Under the pieces are notes generated by a model that saw nothing but the letters and a program-made list of their open reading frames with translations, was not told the origin of the DNA and made no database searches. From positions 1 through 64,000 of the forward strand of contig CAINMV010000024.1 in assembly GCA_903850915.1 (NCBI GenBank): DNA of 64,000 bases. The letters are read 5' to 3'. The DNA is from an uncultured Bacteroidota bacterium (GTDB lineage: Bacteria; Bacteroidota; Bacteroidia; UKL13-3). This document shows positions 43,360-53,271 of this stretch, in pieces. The stretch's first letter is position 1; the number at the start of each line of letters is the position of its first letter. A program made the position numbers and the translations under genes.

Positions 43360-46300
43360 TTAATTCTTCATGAAACGAACACTCTGTGTTCCATTTTCGT
43401 TAACTACATTTACGAAATAAACGCCAGCCGCTAATCTCGAAACATCCGCTTTGCAGAAGGAAATTACATTGTCGAATTGCATCAGCAGAGCGCCCGTCAT
43501 GTCAGTTATTTTAACCGTTGAAGTAGTTGCTGGTAGAATAACATTTAAAATGCTATTGGTAGGATTTGGGTATGCTGTAATTCCAGCCTGAACATTCATT
43601 TGCAGTCCTTTTGAAGGAGTAAGATCGGTGTTTTGTGCTGTTTTCGCTACATCTCCAATATTGCCATCCGATAATGGAACCTCGAAATGGTTACCACCAC
43701 CAAACCATCCACAATTTACAAGTACATTTTTACAAACAGTTGTTGAACAATGTTTCACACTATCGAAAACAGTTAAACAAACTTGGAAGGTGCGTTTACT
43801 GAAGAACGTATGATACGGGCTCTTCGCCGATGAGAAACTTGAGTCACCAAAAGACCACCAATACGATGTTCCACCTACTGTTGTATTGACAAATCGGAAG
43901 GTATTGCAGAAATTATAGGAGTAGAAATTAGCTACCGGACAACATACAGTAGGTATTACAATTGTTTTGCAGTAATAATTGTAACATGTTGAATCGTTAC
44001 ATTTTACTACTTTCAGGCATATGGTATAAGTTCCAGCAGCAGTATAAGTGTGGCTACCTGGATTCTTCGTGGTTGTATAGCTGTTGTCTCCCCAGAACCA
44101 AGTATAATTCATGCAACTATCCCCATAGCTATAGTTCACCACTTCTACCTTCTTGTTTGGACAATTCACCGTAGCGCCAAAGTTGGCATGAGAGTTACAA
44201 CAATTTACAGGTATAACAATTGATTTACATATATAATTAACACATGTTGTATCACTACATTTTTTTACGATAAGACAAACCGTATAAGTGCCTGCTTGGG
44301 TATACGTATGTGATGATGGATTCTTATCATTACTATATGTTCCGTCACCCCATGCCCATTTAGAAATAAAGCAGCTATCACCAGTAGATGTATTTAACAC
44401 TTCAAGTTTTTTATTGGCACAATTAACACCGTAGGTATAATTAGCTAACATACTGCATGTCGTACAGCTTACCGTTACTGTTTTGCAAATGGTGGTATCA
44501 CGACAAACAACGGTGGCTCCTCCACTTGTACTATATCGTTTTACAGTTAAGCAAACATTGAAGGTGCCATTATGATAGAATGTGTGCGTAAGATTGCGAG
44601 ATGTAGTGGTTGCAGAAGTGCTATCACCAAAGCTCCAGATATAACCATAGTATCCTGTTGTATCTGCTATAGAAGTGTTAAAGGAAACTGTTCTTGATGG
44701 GCAAGAAACATTATAAGACCAACCTGCTAATAATGAACAAGGCGTATTGCAATTAATAGCGATAGATTTACATATCACAGTATCACGACAAACGATATTG
44801 CTATTGCTTGCAAAACGTTTAATAGTTAAACACACGGTATAATTGCCATTGGATGTATATGTATGTAGTGGGTCTTTGGTATATGCTGTGGTATTGTCTC
44901 CAAAAGTCCATAAATATGTATAATATGCACTTGTATCAGCCACAAAACTAGAGAAATTTACGGCTCTCGAAGGGCAAGAAACACTATACGACCATCCACC
45001 ATAAAGTGAACATGTAGAATTGCAATTCACAGAAACCGTTTTACAAATATTAGTGTCCTTACAAACTGTAGTTGTACCAGGCACATACCGTTTGATTTTT
45101 AAGCATACAGTATACGTTCCATTATTTACAAATGTATGTGTTGCATTTTTTGTGGTCGCCGAAGAGCTATCACCGAAGTTCCAGATATATGCATATATTC
45201 CATTTGTATCGCCAACATAAGATAGAAATGATACCGTTTTTGATGGGCATGATAGGCTGTAAGTCCAATTTCCATATAATGAACAGCTAGTGCTCGACGT
45301 GCAATTAACAACAACCTGCTTGCATATTGTGGTATCATGACAAGGAGTTGAAGTATTCGAAGATGTGTATCTTTTGATGGATAAGCATACATTGTACGTT
45401 CCATTGTTAGCATAGGTATGGGTTGCTGATTTGGTTGTTCCCGCAACAGAGTTATCTCCATAATTCCAAGTGTATGAATAGATGCCCGTGGTGTCACCTA
45501 CATAACCTTGAAAAGAAACAACTTTAGTAGGACAAGCAACGCTGTAACTCCAGCCACCATAAAGTGGGCAAGTGTTGGTGCAGCTAGTAACTGTAATCGT
45601 TTTGCATATTGTGGTATCCTTACAAACCACACCATTAAAGTATTTTTTGACATTAAAGCAAGCAGTATATGTTCCATTGTTGGCATACACATGACTTGTA
45701 ACTCTATGATTTAAAGTATCATAGGTTTGATCTCCAAAAGCCCAAGTATAGCGAATTCCGCCTGTGGTATCTGAACAATATCCTGAAAAAGTTACAGTGC
45801 GTGTGGTACAATTATATCCCCAACCCCAACTTACTGTTCCAAAATTACAACCAGTGGCGCAATTTATTGTTACTGATTTGCATTTGATAGTATAACAATT
45901 CGTGTCATTGCAACTTAACGCTTTAACGCATACAGTATACGTTCCATTTCCTGCAAACAAATGGCCTATTGGCGTGGTTTTACTTGTTTGCAACGTTGAT
46001 GTTCCATCACCCCAATACCAACGATAATATGCACATGCGGCGTTGGTCATATTGTTACTATCGATAATTGAGAAAGAAACTTCTTTGCAATTGGCTGTGG
46101 ATGCGGTGAAACTGAAGTCCACATCTTTTAAAGGAGTTGATACTGTAACTGTTTTACAAATGGTAGTGTCTTTACATACAACACCATTATTATACTTTTT
46201 AATATTTAGGCAAGCTGTATATTGGTTAACTGCACCATAAGAATGGTAAGTTACTTGATGATTCAATGTATCATACGTCGCATCTCCAAAACCCCATGTA

Positions 46301-46773
46301 TATTTATAAGTACCTAATGAATCAGAGTTAAATGCTTTGAAGTAAAGGTTTTTATTTGTACAATTTTTAGTCCATTCCCAACCAAGACTGCCCCAACTAC
46401 ATGAAGTGCCAGAAGTACAATTCACAGTGATTGTTTGACACATAGTATCAGCACAGATTCCTGCGGAAGTTTGCTTGAACATAACTAAACAGACAGTATA
46501 TGTACCGTTTGCGGAGAAAAGATATGACGAATTCTTTGTAGTTGAAAAGATGGAAGTACCGAGCACCCACAAATAAGAAACACCACTATCGTTACTATTG
46601 GTAACGTAAGAGGTGTTACTGAAAATATACTCCTTGCAATTGGAAGTACTCGCAGTAGCTGTAAAGCCTGCGTGAAAATTACAAGTGGCTTTTGCCTGAC
46701 CTGATAATAATAGCAAACTTGCTAAGAAAAAACTAAACAAGATGCTTTTGATACGTGAAGAGATTGGTTTCAT
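43360..46773 (-). CDS. Cysteine-rich PKD-repeat secreted protein with type A T9SS tail
   Basis: A 1,137-residue exported protein. A signal peptide covers about residues 1-29 (ending GQAKA). About 11 PKD domains of roughly 90 residues follow, each built around W.FGD or W.WGD cores and a T.CL..K strand. Unusually, each repeat carries about four cysteines (a first C, then SCPS or NCxxK, then CL, then CKDTTICK), probably pairing in disulfide bonds. The C-terminal type A sorting domain is AYPNPTNSILNV, VKITDMTGALLMQ, AAGVYFVNVVNENG, ending SVRFMKN. Repeats at about residues 410-700 are especially alike. No catalytic site; an extracellular adhesive or scaffold role is inferred. Confidence 0.92.
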   Translation of the reverse strand: MKPISSRIKSILFSFFLASLLLLSGQAKATCNFHAGFTATASTSNCKEYIFSNTSYVTNSNDSGVSYLWVLGTSIFSTTKNSSYLFSANGTYTVCLVMFKQTSAGICADTMCQTITVNCTSGTSCSWGSLGWEWTKNCTNKNLYFKAFNSDSLGTYKYTWGFGDATYDTLNHQVTYHSYGAVNQYTACLNIKKYNNGVVCKDTTICKTVTVSTPLKDVDFSFTASTANCKEVSFSIIDSNNMTNAACAYYRWYWGDGTSTLQTSKTTPIGHLFAGNGTYTVCVKALSCNDTNCYTIKCKSVTINCATGCNFGTVSWGWGYNCTTRTVTFSGYCSDTTGGIRYTWAFGDQTYDTLNHRVTSHVYANNGTYTACFNVKKYFNGVVCKDTTICKTITVTSCTNTCPLYGGWSYSVACPTKVVSFQGYVGDTTGIYSYTWNYGDNSVAGTTKSATHTYANNGTYNVCLSIKRYTSSNTSTPCHDTTICKQVVVNCTSSTSCSLYGNWTYSLSCPSKTVSFLSYVGDTNGIYAYIWNFGDSSSATTKNATHTFVNNGTYTVCLKIKRYVPGTTTVCKDTNICKTVSVNCNSTCSLYGGWSYSVSCPSRAVNFSSFVADTSAYYTYLWTFGDNTTAYTKDPLHTYTSNGNYTVCLTIKRFASNSNIVCRDTVICKSIAINCNTPCSLLAGWSYNVSCPSRTVSFNTSIADTTGYYGYIWSFGDSTSATTTSRNLTHTFYHNGTFNVCLTVKRYSTSGGATVVCRDTTICKTVTVSCTTCSMLANYTYGVNCANKKLEVLNTSTGDSCFISKWAWGDGTYSNDKNPSSHTYTQAGTYTVCLIVKKCSDTTCVNYICKSIVIPVNCCNSHANFGATVNCPNKKVEVVNYSYGDSCMNYTWFWGDNSYTTTKNPGSHTYTAAGTYTICLKVVKCNDSTCYNYYCKTIVIPTVCCPVANFYSYNFCNTFRFVNTTVGGTSYWWSFGDSSFSSAKSPYHTFFSKRTFQVCLTVFDSVKHCSTTVCKNVLVNCGWFGGGNHFEVPLSDGNIGDVAKTAQNTDLTPSKGLQMNVQAGITAYPNPTNSILNVILPATTSTVKITDMTGALLMQFDNVISFCKADVSRLAAGVYFVNVVNENGTQSVRFMKN
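44700..45570 (-). repeat. Near-identical PKD repeat run (four units of about 270-285 bp)
   Basis: Four successive units starting with the codons for CPLYGGWSYSVACP, CSLYGNWTYSLSCP, CSLYGGWSYSVSCP and CSLLAGWSYNVSCP. The starts are spaced about 285, 275 and 271 bp apart. They are the most recently duplicated part of the gene. Confidence 0.75.
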
Positions 46774-46829: not shown

Positions 46830-49334
46830 TTATTGAATAATTACTTTTTGGGAAGTAAAATTACCTTTTTCTTTGATTATCAAGAAATAAATACCAGAGG
46901 CTAACGTCTTGATATCTAAAGTATTAGAATTCACCTCGCCTTTTAGCACACATAAACCCGCGCTATTTATGAGCTCAAAGGTTGCATTAGGCTCAAAATT
47001 CCGCAGTATAACTATTTCATTTTTTGCCGGATTGGAACAAATTGAAGCAAGGTACAATGTTGGTTTCAACAATTTAATTCCTGAAATATCCGTGACTTTC
47101 GCATACGTATCGTTAGTCCTTATGGGATCATAATAATCGAAAACTACATGAGCTTTGTTTTTAATAATTGTACCTACAGTTAAATTAGTATTAAATTTTA
47201 CACTAAAGCCAATATGTCCTCGGCTTGCAACTGCGTCATTGTTTTCGAAAGGGGGTAAATTAATATTGGTGAATGTCCAAACAATAACCCCTTTGCCAAG
47301 AGCAGATGGGCAGCTATAAATTTGAGTAGTGTAAGGATGTGATGCTCCCGTTTCTTGAATGTATTGAATAGAAGAATTAACATCGATAGTATCGATTACA
47401 ATTACATTATGAATTGTATCTGTAGTTGATGTATTTTCAAAATGAATGATGTAGTTTATTTGATTTTTTTCAGCTGTAACTAAGCTAAAAGAATCATTTA
47501 CACCGGGCATCGGATACAAATCTTTCATAACCGCAGTAGCAGTATTTTGAGTTATTTGTTGAATTAATGTATCCGCGTTGTCAGAATTATCTAAGTCGGA
47601 TAGAAATGATGAAGAGGCAATAAAATTGAGTCTTTCGAGTAAATTAAAAGAGTCTGACTTTGCCTTAACCGAAAATGTAATATTGCGTTGCTCCCCAATT
47701 TTTAGGCTTGAAAAACTCCATGTAATTTTATTTCCATTTATTGCCGATGGAGCAGGTTCTGAATTGAATCCAGAAAGCTTTCTACTTAACACCAACTCTA
47801 CCCCAGCAAGTGTATTAATATCTTTAGTTCCATTATTAGTATATGTTAATGTATATCCTTCGTTAATTTCCCGTCGAGAAGAGAAACCACCATTAGGTGC
47901 AATACTAACAGTTATATCAGCACCATTAGATAATTCTTTCATGCAAAAATCAAGTGAGTCATGAATTGAATTAACAAGTGCCGGAATACTAAATGCGCTT
48001 GAAGAACATGTGTTGTCGATACCCCAATTTTTAAATTTCTCAAGAGTGACCGTGGCATTTATGCTTGAATTCGCACCCACGATAACTGAGTAAAAGCCAT
48101 TAGAATCAGTAAGCACATCCCGATTCTCATTTCCGGAAATGTGAATCATTTTTTTCGCAAATGGACGATCAAGATTAATATCGAATTTGCAATTATGATT
48201 TAAATCTTGAAATACCCTTCCACTCAATCGCATTTGTGAAAATACAATTTGAGCTACTCTATTAAAGCGCATATTCCCCATAAAATCATTCGTTGAAATA
48301 AGAAACAATCCACCTTTAAATCTAAACAATTCTAGGATATTAGCATTGGGTAGGTAAGCCGAAGACCAGTTCGAAGCGTAACGAACAGCTGTTGTTGCTA
48401 CCCCTCCAACGAAAAAGGTGCCTGAAGCCCAAAGTTCATTATTATACTCTTGAATATCATTAATTTGCGTGTAATTTAAACCAGCCGTTAGATTCTGAAA
48501 TCCACTTGCAGTGCGATAATAGATTCTCTCATCACCGCCCAAAATAGCGATATTGCCTTGAAACGAAGTTACCTTATAAACGCCATTGCTATTATTGGTA
48601 AAATATGCCGCTTTCCAAGCAAGAACACTGTCGTATACAACTGCCAAATTAGGTGCGTTAAAACCGCCAGCCTTAGTAAAATACCCCCCGATATAAAGTG
48701 AGTCATTTATCACTGCCATGGAATTAATAACACCATTTGTACCTGTATTTACGAGACCTCCAAGGCCACATTTAGTAAAATTGAAGCCATTATAAGCAAC
48801 AATATTTTGGGCGGTATCGTTATTAACCACTGCCAAGAAATACCCTGCAATTATCAATTGATTTTTATAAACCACTAAACTATTTATTACGCCATTTCCT
48901 CCGAGGAAGGCTAATGCCCCACCTCCGAGATTACTTATTACCGCTTCCCATTTATTTAAAATAGTATTAAATCGAACTAGTGTTTTTGTTGAGTTAATTG
49001 TTGGTGACTTCACTGTGAAGTTTCCTGCGATATAGACTTGGCCTTTATAAACAGCAATATTCCGAACCACATTACTACTATCTGAAAAGGTAATCGCGGG
49101 AAGCTGTTGCCAATAGAAACCATTCCATTTATTGATTGTAACCGATTGCCCCTTTCCGAAACCATTGGAATGCCGCGTAGCGATAAATATAAAATTGTCA
49201 TCCGTTGAGGTTGCAATCACTTCATCGGTGAACCCTTGATATAAGGGAAGGCCTTGCGACAAAGGTTTCAGTAGTTGAGCTTTAGCATTAGCAGCCAAGA
49301 AAACCAAGATTGAAAAAAGTATTTTTTTAACCAT
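46830..49334 (-). CDS. Secreted protein with beta-propeller-like region, repeat domains and type A T9SS tail
   Basis: An 834-residue exported protein; the ATG at 49334 gives a compact signal peptide (MVKKILFSILVFLAANAKAQ). Residues about 20-370 have repeated YKGQVYIAGNF, YKNQLIIAGYF and INDSLYIGGYF units, typical of a delta-60/propeller fold. A short SdrB-like domain follows (LSGRVFQDLNHNCKFDINLD). Two beta-sandwich domains of the DUF11/DUF7619 kind lie about 470-770 (YTLTYTNNGTKDIN; INYIIHFENTSTTDTIHNV). The last 70 residues are a type A sorting domain (PTLYLASICSNPAKNEI, LASGIYFLIIKEKG). It is the last gene after the barrel protein (gap about 20 bases). Confidence 0.85.
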   Translation of the reverse strand: MVKKILFSILVFLAANAKAQLLKPLSQGLPLYQGFTDEVIATSTDDNFIFIATRHSNGFGKGQSVTINKWNGFYWQQLPAITFSDSSNVVRNIAVYKGQVYIAGNFTVKSPTINSTKTLVRFNTILNKWEAVISNLGGGALAFLGGNGVINSLVVYKNQLIIAGYFLAVVNNDTAQNIVAYNGFNFTKCGLGGLVNTGTNGVINSMAVINDSLYIGGYFTKAGGFNAPNLAVVYDSVLAWKAAYFTNNSNGVYKVTSFQGNIAILGGDERIYYRTASGFQNLTAGLNYTQINDIQEYNNELWASGTFFVGGVATTAVRYASNWSSAYLPNANILELFRFKGGLFLISTNDFMGNMRFNRVAQIVFSQMRLSGRVFQDLNHNCKFDINLDRPFAKKMIHISGNENRDVLTDSNGFYSVIVGANSSINATVTLEKFKNWGIDNTCSSSAFSIPALVNSIHDSLDFCMKELSNGADITVSIAPNGGFSSRREINEGYTLTYTNNGTKDINTLAGVELVLSRKLSGFNSEPAPSAINGNKITWSFSSLKIGEQRNITFSVKAKSDSFNLLERLNFIASSSFLSDLDNSDNADTLIQQITQNTATAVMKDLYPMPGVNDSFSLVTAEKNQINYIIHFENTSTTDTIHNVIVIDTIDVNSSIQYIQETGASHPYTTQIYSCPSALGKGVIVWTFTNINLPPFENNDAVASRGHIGFSVKFNTNLTVGTIIKNKAHVVFDYYDPIRTNDTYAKVTDISGIKLLKPTLYLASICSNPAKNEIVILRNFEPNATFELINSAGLCVLKGEVNSNTLDIKTLASGIYFLIIKEKGNFTSQKVIIQ

Positions 49335-49354
49335 TCGGGAGTACATTGAAACGT

Positions 49355-50989
49355 TTAAAATTTAAAACCAATTCCCCATCGCATGCCAAAAGCATAAGGC
49401 AACTCGTTGATGCCTGTTTTCTTCTTATACAAGGAGGTAATATTAGATCTAGAATACAACTGTGTGCCCAATTGCCATTTGCTGTTAAGATTGTAATTAA
49501 GTTTCATTTCAACACTACCATTTAATGCAAATTTATTCAGGTCGTTTGCATGGTCTTTAATATTCACAAGAGCATCCGCGCCTACGCTAGGCATTAATCC
49601 TTCTGCTTTTAATAAATAGCTAATTGAAGCCGTTGCCCCAACCTCAAACTCAAATTTAGAAAAGAGTCCAACTTGATAAGAAAAATGGAGCGGCAATTCA
49701 ATGGCGGTAAAGTCATTGTGGTAATTTGAAGTTGAAGTAGTATCACGATAATTATATGGAAAATACCCAATTATTTGCCCCTGAGGATTATATAATGGAA
49801 GAGAATCGTGCAGGTGACTTACAAGTTTATATGTTCCTTGTTGGCCGAAATTATTTTGATGTAATCCAAAGCCAAGAAATATCTTTTTGTATTGGTAATG
49901 AAAATCGGCCCCTACATTAAATCGGGTGGTAATCTGATCAGCAGTGTTTCTTACTTCTAAATATTTTTCCCTATCCGCATTTAAAAACCTACCATTTTGT
50001 GACCCCGCAGCAAAAACCTGTAAAGTGAATCTTGGCTTGGGTTTGCGAATAGTTAAATGTTTTGTATTCTCGCTTTTGGATGGGTATGTCTCGGGGGTTT
50101 CAACATTTTCAAGCTGATGGGATAATTGTTGACCTTCCTTTTTAAATTCTTCAGTATTAGACTTCGCTATCACTTCTTTATCCAAATTATTGGAGCCTGA
50201 AATTTCACTTTTTGTCTGCGTAATTAGTTCGTTATTAACCTTGGCTTGCAACTCTTTTTTATGGGAATTACTAGGTTGGTATTGAATAGGGATATTACGC
50301 ATTACAATAGAAGAATTCACATTCTTTGATTGCTGTTTCGCTGCTAGATTACCCATCAAAATATCGTAAGTTATTTTAGCATTTTCATCAAGTATTGAAT
50401 TGTTAGATAACAACTCGCCGTCATTGTTTCCACCCTTGCTTAACTCATTCTTAATTTCGGCAACGTTTTTGTTTCTACTCGATAGTTGCATTCCAGAGTA
50501 CCAAGCTGGAATCAACAACACCAATAAAAGCCAGGCATATCGAATTCGTTTTCTTTTATTTTGAATTTGCAACACACGATTCCGGATCAGAGCAAATTCT
50601 TTATCGTGCGCTACACCTTGATAATTTTGAAGCGCGTTTTTAAAATGCGCATCAATTTGTCGGTCACGATCAAGCTTGCTTTTTATTTCAGAGAATGGAA
50701 TTGGAAGTGCGTATGAATTATAGTCTTGTAAAGCTTCTTTAAAGTAACTATCTACTGATGTTTTAGATGCGTCAACTTTGGCTTTTATTGCATCGAAGAT
50801 TGTATCATCGGCATTGCCTTCTAAACCGAATAAACTAGTTTTAAAAAAATCATCTACAGAAAGGTTGACTTTTGAAGTATCATCCATTTTATCTTTTATT
50901 GCATCAAACATTCCTTCGTTGGCTTGGCCTTCAAAATTCTGTAAGGGTGCTTTAAAATACTGGTCGATATGTATATTCTTCTTCAACAC
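49355..50989 (-). CDS. Trans-envelope protein: cytoplasmic repeats, one membrane helix and C-terminal outer-membrane barrel
   Basis: A 544-residue protein, start GTG directly after the sigma factor stop (TAAGTG). Four short repeats of the form ID.YFK.AL..y...A....F..IK.K.D occupy residues 8-141. The sequence NKRKRIR (144-150) and a single helix (about 151-168) put the repeats in the cytoplasm. A polar linker (about 170-317) follows. The last 225 residues have alternating amphipathic strands ending in the aromatic GIGFKF, as in small outer-membrane beta-barrels (PorT/OprF-like). A protein with both an inner-membrane helix and an outer-membrane barrel is unusual. Position after an ECF sigma gene suggests an anti-sigma role for the cytoplasmic repeats; this is inference. 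No known anti-sigma zinc motif (H-x3-C-x2-C) is present. Confidence 0.75.
   Translation of the reverse strand: MLKKNIHIDQYFKAPLQNFEGQANEGMFDAIKDKMDDTSKVNLSVDDFFKTSLFGLEGNADDTIFDAIKAKVDASKTSVDSYFKEALQDYNSYALPIPFSEIKSKLDRDRQIDAHFKNALQNYQGVAHDKEFALIRNRVLQIQNKRKRIRYAWLLLVLLIPAWYSGMQLSSRNKNVAEIKNELSKGGNNDGELLSNNSILDENAKITYDILMGNLAAKQQSKNVNSSIVMRNIPIQYQPSNSHKKELQAKVNNELITQTKSEISGSNNLDKEVIAKSNTEEFKKEGQQLSHQLENVETPETYPSKSENTKHLTIRKPKPRFTLQVFAAGSQNGRFLNADREKYLEVRNTADQITTRFNVGADFHYQYKKIFLGFGLHQNNFGQQGTYKLVSHLHDSLPLYNPQGQIIGYFPYNYRDTTSTSNYHNDFTAIELPLHFSYQVGLFSKFEFEVGATASISYLLKAEGLMPSVGADALVNIKDHANDLNKFALNGSVEMKLNYNLNSKWQLGTQLYSRSNITSLYKKKTGINELPYAFGMRWGIGFKF
50567..50968 (-). repeat. Four ~33-residue repeats at the N-terminus of the barrel protein
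   Basis: Units begin at residues 8, 45, 79 and 112 with IDQYFKAPL, VDDFFKTSL, VDSYFKEAL and IDAHFKNAL. Conserved positions are I/V-D-x-x-F-K-x-x-L and, about 20 residues on, F-x-x-I-K/R. They have diverged and are in frame. Confidence 0.8.
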
Positions 50990-51592
50990 TTATTGATTTA
51001 ATGCTTGCTTACTTTGTTTTTCGTTTACCCAAGCCTGAAGTTGTTTCCGAGCTCTCGCCAATTGTGATTTACTTGTTCCTTCGCTGATTCCCAAATGATT
51101 GGCTATCTCTCGATGACTCATCTCATCAATGGCGTACATATTAAAAACAACGCGATATCCAGTTGGTAATTTTTGAACCAACGCCAAAAGTTCATCGACG
51201 CTAAGAGGTTCATTTACCACCTCTGTATGATCTTCAAAATCTTGATCGTTGCTATACTTATCAAACGACTCAATAAATTTTAGTTTTTTGTTTTTTCTGA
51301 AATTATCGATAGCCGTATTCATCATAATACGAGTTATCCAAGTGGTTACGCTGCTGTTGCCTTTGAATTTGTGAAGCGTAGTAAACACTTTGACAAATCC
51401 TTCTTGCATAATATCTTTTGCATCGTCAACACTATTGCAATAACGCAAACATACCCCCAACATCTTATTTGCAAACATTTTATAAAGCTTGCTTTGTGCT
51501 GCGGCATTGCCATTGATACATTCTTGCAGTATTTCTTCCACCTCTAGCGTGTGATTTTTACCTTGGTCGGCGCAAGCCTCCTTGGGTTGCAT
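50990..51592 (-). CDS. ECF-type RNA polymerase sigma factor
   Basis: A 200-residue sigma-70 family factor of the ECF group. Region 2 is at about residues 40-105 (LRYCNSVDDAKDIMQEGFVK, then FKGNSSVTTWITRIMMNTAI). Region 4 (about 140-190) has VVFNMYAIDEMSHREIANHL and the helix-turn-helix ISEGTSKSQLARARKQL. It would direct RNA polymerase to envelope-stress-type promoters. I chose the ATG at 51592 (MQPKEACADQ) over an upstream ATG at 51643, but a TAATTTTG-like match at 51593-51600 touches it and may be coincidental. The next gene begins with the GTG after the TAA, so the pair is tightly coupled. Confidence 0.9.
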   Translation of the reverse strand: MQPKEACADQGKNHTLEVEEILQECINGNAAAQSKLYKMFANKMLGVCLRYCNSVDDAKDIMQEGFVKVFTTLHKFKGNSSVTTWITRIMMNTAIDNFRKNKKLKFIESFDKYSNDQDFEDHTEVVNEPLSVDELLALVQKLPTGYRVVFNMYAIDEMSHREIANHLGISEGTSKSQLARARKQLQAWVNEKQSKQALNQ

Positions 51593-51664
51593 CAAAATTA
51601 ATGTTTTATAGCTAATTGTCAGGCACCTGCCTAACCAACCCAAAAATCAATTTTGAGTTCCCTA

Positions 51665-53257
51665 TTAAAACTTCATTTTCTCGAAATATAAGTTTGATTT
51701 TAAGCAATTTAAAGCTTTGAGAAAGGTATTGTCATCAAAGTTCTCGATGTAAAGTAATCCATTACTTTTAAAAAGCTGCTTGGCTATGTTGGCCTTCAGG
51801 TGCTTCTCAATTTCGGCCTTCGACTTAATAAAGTCGCTTTCATCCCATTCAACTCCAGAATTTGCTGCTGTTGATTTAAGCTGCGTTATCAAAGCTGGTG
51901 GGATTTGAAACCCATTTTGGAATTCTTTCACCGAGCTATACTTCGTTAAATCACTTCGGTGTGTGTCGAAGTAAGTATAGGCAACTTCCCTTAGCATATT
52001 CTTTTCGAGCAAACAACCCATCAGTTTGGAATTTCGGGTGGAGTCGAGTGCGACGAATACATCAGGAACGATACCACCGCCCCCGTATACACGTCTACCT
52101 GCGACGGTGGTGTAAACCAAATTGGTATTGTTTTTTATACTGTCTTCAACAAATAGTTCGCCTTGCTTAAATCGCGCTCTATAGTCATCTTCATATTGAT
52201 CAAAACCATGGTTATATGGCCTTTGTATACTCCTTCCTGTTGGGGTATAATAACGAGAAATGGTTAGTCGAACAGCCGACCCATCTTTTAGTGAAAAAGA
52301 ATTTTGCACGAGCCCTTTGCCAAAAGTACGTCGACCGACAATCAAGGCACGATCATTATCTTGCAAGGCACCACTTAATATTTCGCTGGCGCTAGCGCTA
52401 TTTTCGTTTACCAAAACAATCAATTTGCCTTTTTCGAATTCGCCTTTACTTGTGGCACTAAAGGTTTCAATGCCTGTATGCTCCCCTTTGGTTGTGAGTA
52501 TCTTCGCTTCCGATTGTAAAAATTCATCCGCTAGCTTCTGAGCTGTATTTAAATATCCGCCACCATTATCACGCAAGTCCAAAATAAGGTTCTTCATCCC
52601 TTGTTCTCTCATTGCTGTGAAGGCGATACCATATTCATCCATTGTATTTGCGGCAAATCTGGAGATTTTAATATAGCCCGTTTCTGGATCTGCCATAAAA
52701 TAGCCATCGATACTTTTGATAACCACATGACCACGATTTACTTTAAAATTAAGTATTTTTGGCTCCATAGCTCTACAAACGCCCAATGCCACTGATGACC
52801 CCTCTTTCCCCTTTAACAGTTTAAACACATCTTCGTTGCTAAGGTTCATCCCTGTTAATGCCTGGCCATCCACGTTAACAATTTTATCTCCACCCTTTAA
52901 GCCCGCTTTGGCACTCGGGCCATCATCAATTACCTGAGCTATATAAATTGTATCTTCTAGAAGCAAAAACTCAATGCCTATTCCCTCGAAACCACCTTCT
53001 AATGGTTCGTTTACATGAGCAGCCTCTAAGGCGGTAAAGTAATTACTATGGGGATCTAAAGAGTGTAAAAGATTAGTGATTGTTGTTTTTTCTAACGCAT
53101 CTGTGTTTATGGTATCGACATAATTACTTCTAATCAACTGCAAAATTTGTGATATTCTGTTCCCTCCTGAGCTCCGCGAAGGTGCCAACAAAATGCCAAT
53201 ACCAATTCCAATAGCTAACATAATGGCCAATTTCAGAGGTTGCAACGCTTGTTTCAT
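51665..53257 (-). CDS. C-terminal processing peptidase (S41 family)
   Basis: A 530-residue serine protease of the CtpA/S41A family. A hydrophobic N-terminal anchor (about 9-25, IMLAIGIGIGILLAPS) exports it. A PDZ domain covers about 80-170 (EGGFEGIGIEFLLLEDTIYI, AGLKGGDKIVNVDGQAL). The S41 catalytic domain has LILDLRDNGGGYLNTA, then ENSASASEIL with the nucleophile Ser and RRTFGKGLVQ with the general-base Lys. Such proteases trim or degrade periplasmic proteins. The ATG at 53257 is preferred because the one at 53266 lies inside the TACTTTTG box. It precedes the sigma factor gene by 72 bases on the same strand. Confidence 0.95.
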   Translation of the reverse strand: MKQALQPLKLAIMLAIGIGIGILLAPSRSSGGNRISQILQLIRSNYVDTINTDALEKTTITNLLHSLDPHSNYFTALEAAHVNEPLEGGFEGIGIEFLLLEDTIYIAQVIDDGPSAKAGLKGGDKIVNVDGQALTGMNLSNEDVFKLLKGKEGSSVALGVCRAMEPKILNFKVNRGHVVIKSIDGYFMADPETGYIKISRFAANTMDEYGIAFTAMREQGMKNLILDLRDNGGGYLNTAQKLADEFLQSEAKILTTKGEHTGIETFSATSKGEFEKGKLIVLVNENSASASEILSGALQDNDRALIVGRRTFGKGLVQNSFSLKDGSAVRLTISRYYTPTGRSIQRPYNHGFDQYEDDYRARFKQGELFVEDSIKNNTNLVYTTVAGRRVYGGGGIVPDVFVALDSTRNSKLMGCLLEKNMLREVAYTYFDTHRSDLTKYSSVKEFQNGFQIPPALITQLKSTAANSGVEWDESDFIKSKAEIEKHLKANIAKQLFKSNGLLYIENFDDNTFLKALNCLKSNLYFEKMKF

Positions 53258-53263
53258 AAAATG

Positions 53264-53271
53264 CAAAAGTA
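53264..53271 (-). promoter_or_regulatory. -7 promoter box of the S41 protease gene
   Basis: Minus-strand TACTTTTG followed by C, 6 bases from the ATG at 53257. Together they indicate a leaderless transcript and set the start codon. Confidence 0.6.

Follow-up and report, generated by a model that had tools for sequence, protein, structure and literature searches.

A Bacteroidota locus pairing an ECF sigma factor with a predicted two-membrane barrel protein that carries four sigma-side hairpin repeats

The window analyzed, a stretch of 64,000 nucleotides from an uncultured Bacteroidota bacterium (contig CAINMV010000024.1, positions 1 to 64,000), carries on its minus strand, in this order, genes for an S41/PDZ peptidase, an ECF sigma factor, a putative anti-sigma/barrel protein, a T9SS-secreted protein and a T9SS protein with PKD repeats. 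The features of the locus are listed below in window coordinates, with the scores of the hairpin repeats in bits.

51665-53266, minus strand: S41/PDZ peptidase, next gene upstream of the sigma factor
51593-51600, minus strand: candidate -7 promoter element, TAATTTTG, from direct sequence comparison
50990-51541, minus strand: ECF sigma factor, 183 aa from a conserved GTG; the open frame extends to an ATG at 51592
49355-50989, minus strand: putative anti-sigma/barrel protein, 544 codons from a GTG; likely start at the conserved TTG 50986
50882-50968, minus strand: hairpin repeat 1, residues 8-36; matrix score 16.0; 52% invariant in the genus
50771-50857, minus strand: hairpin repeat 2, residues 45-73; matrix score 3.1; two helices; 38% invariant in the genus
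50669-50755, minus strand: hairpin repeat 3, residues 79-107; matrix score 0.9; two helices; 55% invariant in the genus
50570-50656, minus strand: hairpin repeat 4, residues 112-140; matrix score -0.8; two helices; 52% invariant in the genus
50480-50539, minus strand: membrane helix, residues ~151-170, preceded by KRKRIR; hydropathy peak 1.41; part of a helix spanning 129-185 in the model
50030-50479, minus strand: predicted periplasmic tether, residues ~171-320; disordered, rich in N/K/E/S
49358-50029, minus strand: predicted eight-stranded outer-membrane beta-barrel, residues 321-544, with a C-terminal F
46830-49346, minus strand: T9SS-secreted protein with DUF7619 and Por_Secre_tail (Pfam), third gene of the apparent operon
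43360-46773, minus strand: PKD-repeat T9SS protein, downstream of the operon

Judged from its domains, the gene adjacent to the barrel-protein gene certainly encodes an ECF sigma factor, which is classed here at the ECF level. The product matched Sigma70_r2 (E=1.5e-16) and Sigma70_r4_2 (E=1.4e-17) in Pfam, and TIGR02937 over the cut-off in NCBIfam. The ATG at 51592 is an improbable start codon: a stop follows it four codons on in two relatives and lies within the same leader in a third. Since these leaders carry stops and the GTG at 51541 (VEEI...) is common to all four same-genus species (the window and three relatives), this GTG is the likely start. The candidate -7 element lies within a TTTG[AG]TGCAACC block conserved in all four species and reads TATATTTG in the three relatives; the Bacteroidota -7 consensus is TAnnTTTG.

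The sigma gene ends with a TAA at 50990-50992, and the barrel-protein ORF follows directly in the same frame, a single TAA separating the two in all four same-genus species. The sequence-only reading had placed the start of the second gene at the GTG directly after the sigma stop. The in-frame ORF does adjoin the TAA, but the GTG (50989) is not conserved, relatives having GTA or TCG in its place, whereas the TTG at 50986 is common to the four species and is, on this comparison, the likely start. The same reading had noticed a T9SS protein gene close by on the same strand; this gene lies 8 bp away and its product does carry a Por_Secre_tail domain.

The architecture computed for the barrel protein was the one claimed from the first reading of the letters: four repeats at the N-terminus, a single membrane helix, a linker of about 150 residues and, at the C-terminus, a barrel whose last residue is F. 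A hydropathy scan of the protein revealed no stretch near membrane-helix hydropathy other than residues ~151-170. This stretch lies 150 residues in and behind a positive cluster, which rules out a cleaved N-terminal signal peptide. In an AlphaFold2 model built on an alignment of 42 sequences, the tether showed pLDDT under 50 over residues 188-298; its length is within 139-345 residues, as in nearly all relatives, and over the four species of the genus 6% of tether positions were invariant against 31% in the barrel. The C-terminal region was modelled as eight long strands (residues 321-543, pLDDT up to 98), and a Foldseek search of the PDB matched it to the eight-stranded NspA (TM normalised by target 0.72), OmpA and OmpW, upholding the prediction of a barrel, here of the eight-stranded outer-membrane type. 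PF13568 (OMP_b-brl_2) scored below the cut-off on the barrel of the window (E=0.0035) and matched 31 of the 42 homologues in the alignment, the best at 3.8e-11. A phmmer search of the protein against solved structures gave chance matches only. As had been noted, the zinc anti-sigma motif (HxxxCxxC) is missing, the whole protein being devoid of cysteine, and a FecR domain was not found in it (Pfam, E up to 1).

In named Bacteroidota genomes, the gene that directly follows a related sigma gene encodes a protein that starts with one hairpin (F..iF.ekL..fe..Ps..vW..Ie..L), which precedes a single membrane helix. Since the short hairpin profile lacked the power to pick up the diverged repeats in a local hmmsearch, an ungapped matrix and shuffles were used instead. 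The matrix was derived from 59 single-hairpin anti-sigmas of other genomes, none of them from the genus of the window. Its best four sites in the barrel protein were at residues 8, 45, 79 and 112, the next best scoring -16.4 bits (about 15 bits lower), and the N-terminus, shuffled 5000 times, never yielded so high a summed score or so good a fourth peak. Because the matrix picks exactly these four sites and the shuffles never match them, the repeats are, by this sequence criterion, diverged copies homologous to the sigma-side hairpin of the family. In the repeats the W of the family hairpin is replaced by F and the conserved P-S is also lost; all four agree in their hydrophobic pattern and are helical in form. 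The full-length AlphaFold2 model showed paired helices over the repeats, with low pLDDT (~36-58) across most of repeats 1 and 2, and the first helix of repeat 4 was continuous with the preceding helix. Neither Pfam nor NCBIfam has a named family for the repeats.

The suggestion that repeat number might vary between species was borne out, counts with the hairpin matrix ranging from 1 to 7. One copy was counted in 62 of 78 proteins of the named set, two in 9 and seven in one; the family of the window itself had two copies in 42/59 and one in 16/59, and the phylum sample one in 60/68 and two in 5/68, all of these being rough frequencies, as similarity of the sigma determined the ranking of the named set and some loci in every set are duplicates or truncated. 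The five other related sigma/anti-sigma pairs in the genome of the window have a single hairpin each. Four copies are kept in all four species of the genus with an assembled locus, and each repeat is closest to the repeat at the same position in a sister species (59-68% identity, against 34-45% between repeats), indicating that the duplications predate the genus and that all copies were kept. The sigma-side part thus appears as a short module multiplied in several lineages. The highest count belongs to a Saprospiraceae protein (L022:5678-7729) in which seven tandem hairpins are followed by a membrane helix and a C-terminal barrel; its N-terminus as query gave no match in 395 phylum genomes, which with such short, diverged repeats is no measure of rarity. 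Two further anti-sigma N-termini (L218 and L228) have three hairpins each, counted by eye, which suggests independent expansions. A full-text literature search found no paper on tandem anti-sigma hairpins.

The sigma-barrel gene pair was searched for in other genomes and proved widespread in Bacteroidota. A homologous barrel was present in 104 of the 145 sigma partners surveyed, and the C-terminal F occurred in 69/106 barrel-bearing proteins against 0/41 of those without a barrel. Many partners of closely related sigmas (L016-L095) were short (~190-330 aa) and single-pass, with the same hairpin and no barrel; the barrel therefore appears to be an optional outer end.

Of the four other genomes of the genus, three (G001, G002 and G004) conserve the pair and the gene order, T9SS third gene included. 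In the fourth, G003, the T9SS gene sits at a contig end, so that the missing pair is no evidence of a loss. The triad of sigma, middle protein and T9SS protein is also present at four loci of two other genera, one in G007 and three in G029, and the downstream proteins carried DUF7619 and Por_Secre_tail in 4/4 checked. A barrel was detected in three of these four triads, the middle protein of the remaining one (L168) having a membrane helix and no detected barrel. G029 thus holds three separate triads in one genome (L168, L132 and L143), two of which have a middle protein with a detectable barrel. The T9SS protein adjoining the pair in G007 is the only match in that genome to the T9SS protein of the window. 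The genome of the window encodes SprA, indicating that a T9SS is present. A chance link of the sigma/barrel pair to the T9SS protein is unlikely, and the recurrence of this surface protein makes it a concrete candidate for the signal (ligand) or the output.

This architecture is already published and is not a new kind of protein. Proteins of the Dma family, which is confined to Bacteroidota, have an N-terminal anti-sigma domain, a membrane helix, a disordered tether and a barrel, and are encoded beside an ECF21 sigma (PMC13088901). The same source credits the discovery of Dma to Pardue 2024 (PMC13088901). The one-protein outer-membrane-to-cytoplasm design became known only recently, from gut Bacteroides. 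The protein of the window resembles this family in its single membrane helix, its long and disordered tether, its barrel at the C-terminus and the adjacent sigma, classed here as ECF; its N-terminal hairpins would be the counterpart of the anti-sigma domain. It differs in having four tandem hairpins, a comparison made with the Dma description in PMC13088901, without hairpin counts for Dma1-3, as well as in its DUF7619/T9SS operon partner and in its different Bacteroidota lineage. In Dma3 of B. thetaiotaomicron, sigma and anti-sigma also share one reading frame, but there the anti-sigma carries the sigma domain as an N-terminal fusion (PMC13088901), whereas here a stop codon parts the two ORFs. 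In the P. vulgatus pair M0N98_03760/03761, for which a periplasm-spanning anti-sigma with an outer-membrane barrel was reported in 2022, the sigma gene likewise lies directly upstream (PMC9308784). That pair differs in responding to envelope damage by BcpT, and the accessible text describes no T9SS partner or repeat structure for it (PMC9308784). Neither a multiplied hairpin nor a T9SS partner is described in the accessible portions of PMC13088901 or PMC9308784; as far as these texts go, the locus is a new, multi-hairpin form of a known class. Signalling from outer membrane to cytoplasm by a single protein would extend well beyond gut Bacteroides.

As the two ORFs lie in frame, the sigma and the N-terminus of the barrel protein could be modelled as one chain across the TAA; rows with the anti-sigma only, which misaligned onto the sigma, were left out of the alignment. 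Residues 1-175 of the modelled sigma aligned best with SigW of the SigW/RsiW complex (Z 14.0, 4.4 A over 151 residues), at 4.8 A with RpoE/NepR and at 5.3 A with CnrH/CnrY; the deviation from RNA-polymerase-bound SigH was about 26 A over both domains. The modelled sigma fits an inhibited arrangement, though free ECF sigmas may be compact too. The confident placing of repeat 1 in this model (pLDDT ~95) likewise speaks for a grip on the sigma, although this repeat was favoured by the depth of the alignment.

As a whole, the locus is best explained by a two-membrane anti-sigma with a four-hairpin grip on the sigma, which we consider probable. We infer a topology in which the C-terminal barrel would sit in the outer membrane, the tether would cross the periplasm and the one helix would pass through the inner membrane, the cytoplasmic N-terminus keeping the sigma inactive and compact. 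The sigma would be released when the barrel undergoes a change, whether through a ligand, envelope stress, or strain on or cleavage of the tether, and would then drive transcription of its own operon, with the T9SS surface protein among the products, and possibly of other genes. The four hairpins would provide a multivalent grip, with several on one sigma or one sigma each. A stricter version, in which each hairpin holds one sigma, sigmas are stored and released together and repeat number (1 to 7 across Bacteroidota) sets the threshold, seems unlikely. Because copy number varies between lineages, the dependence of the sigma grip on the number of hairpins can be examined directly.

Alternatively, hairpin 1 alone could inhibit the sigma of the window while hairpins 2-4 bind other ECF sigmas of the same genome or drive self-association, a reading that deserves attention although we lean against it. 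Repeat 1 was the only confident repeat in the fused model (pLDDT ~95, against ~42-72 for repeats 2-4), five further single-hairpin sigma/anti-sigma pairs exist in the genome, and the greater similarity of repeats to their orthologous positions (59-68%) than to each other (34-45%) points to a separate history for each position. However, repeat 1 was covered by about five rows of the alignment and repeats 2-4 by almost none, a difference in depth that partly accounts for the high confidence of repeat 1, and the hydrophobic pattern and helical form are kept in all four repeats.

It is also conceivable, though improbable, that the barrel protein is made as one chain and routinely cleaved in the periplasm, with no intact two-membrane form at steady state and with signalling by regulated proteolysis. 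In every same-genus genome with an assembled locus, four in all, the sigma gene is immediately preceded by the S41/PDZ gene, and the peptidase may be a site-1 protease or a coincidental neighbour; the unconserved, disordered tether would also be compatible with cleavage. Against this, no S41 gene was found beside such pairs in the other surveyed loci, many of which reach only a short way upstream, and the published Dma model has intact proteins across both membranes (PMC13088901). That the barrel protein is instead a co-activator of the sigma is compatible with the sequence taken alone but very improbable, since the neighbouring sigma is de-repressed in Dma1 and Dma2 mutants (PMC13088901) and activated on loss of the P. 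vulgatus homologue (PMC9308784), and since the sigma, when modelled together with the repeats, looks like ECF sigmas in inhibited structures.

The large T9SS protein encoded downstream of the operon, at 43360-46773, contains about eleven PKD domains.
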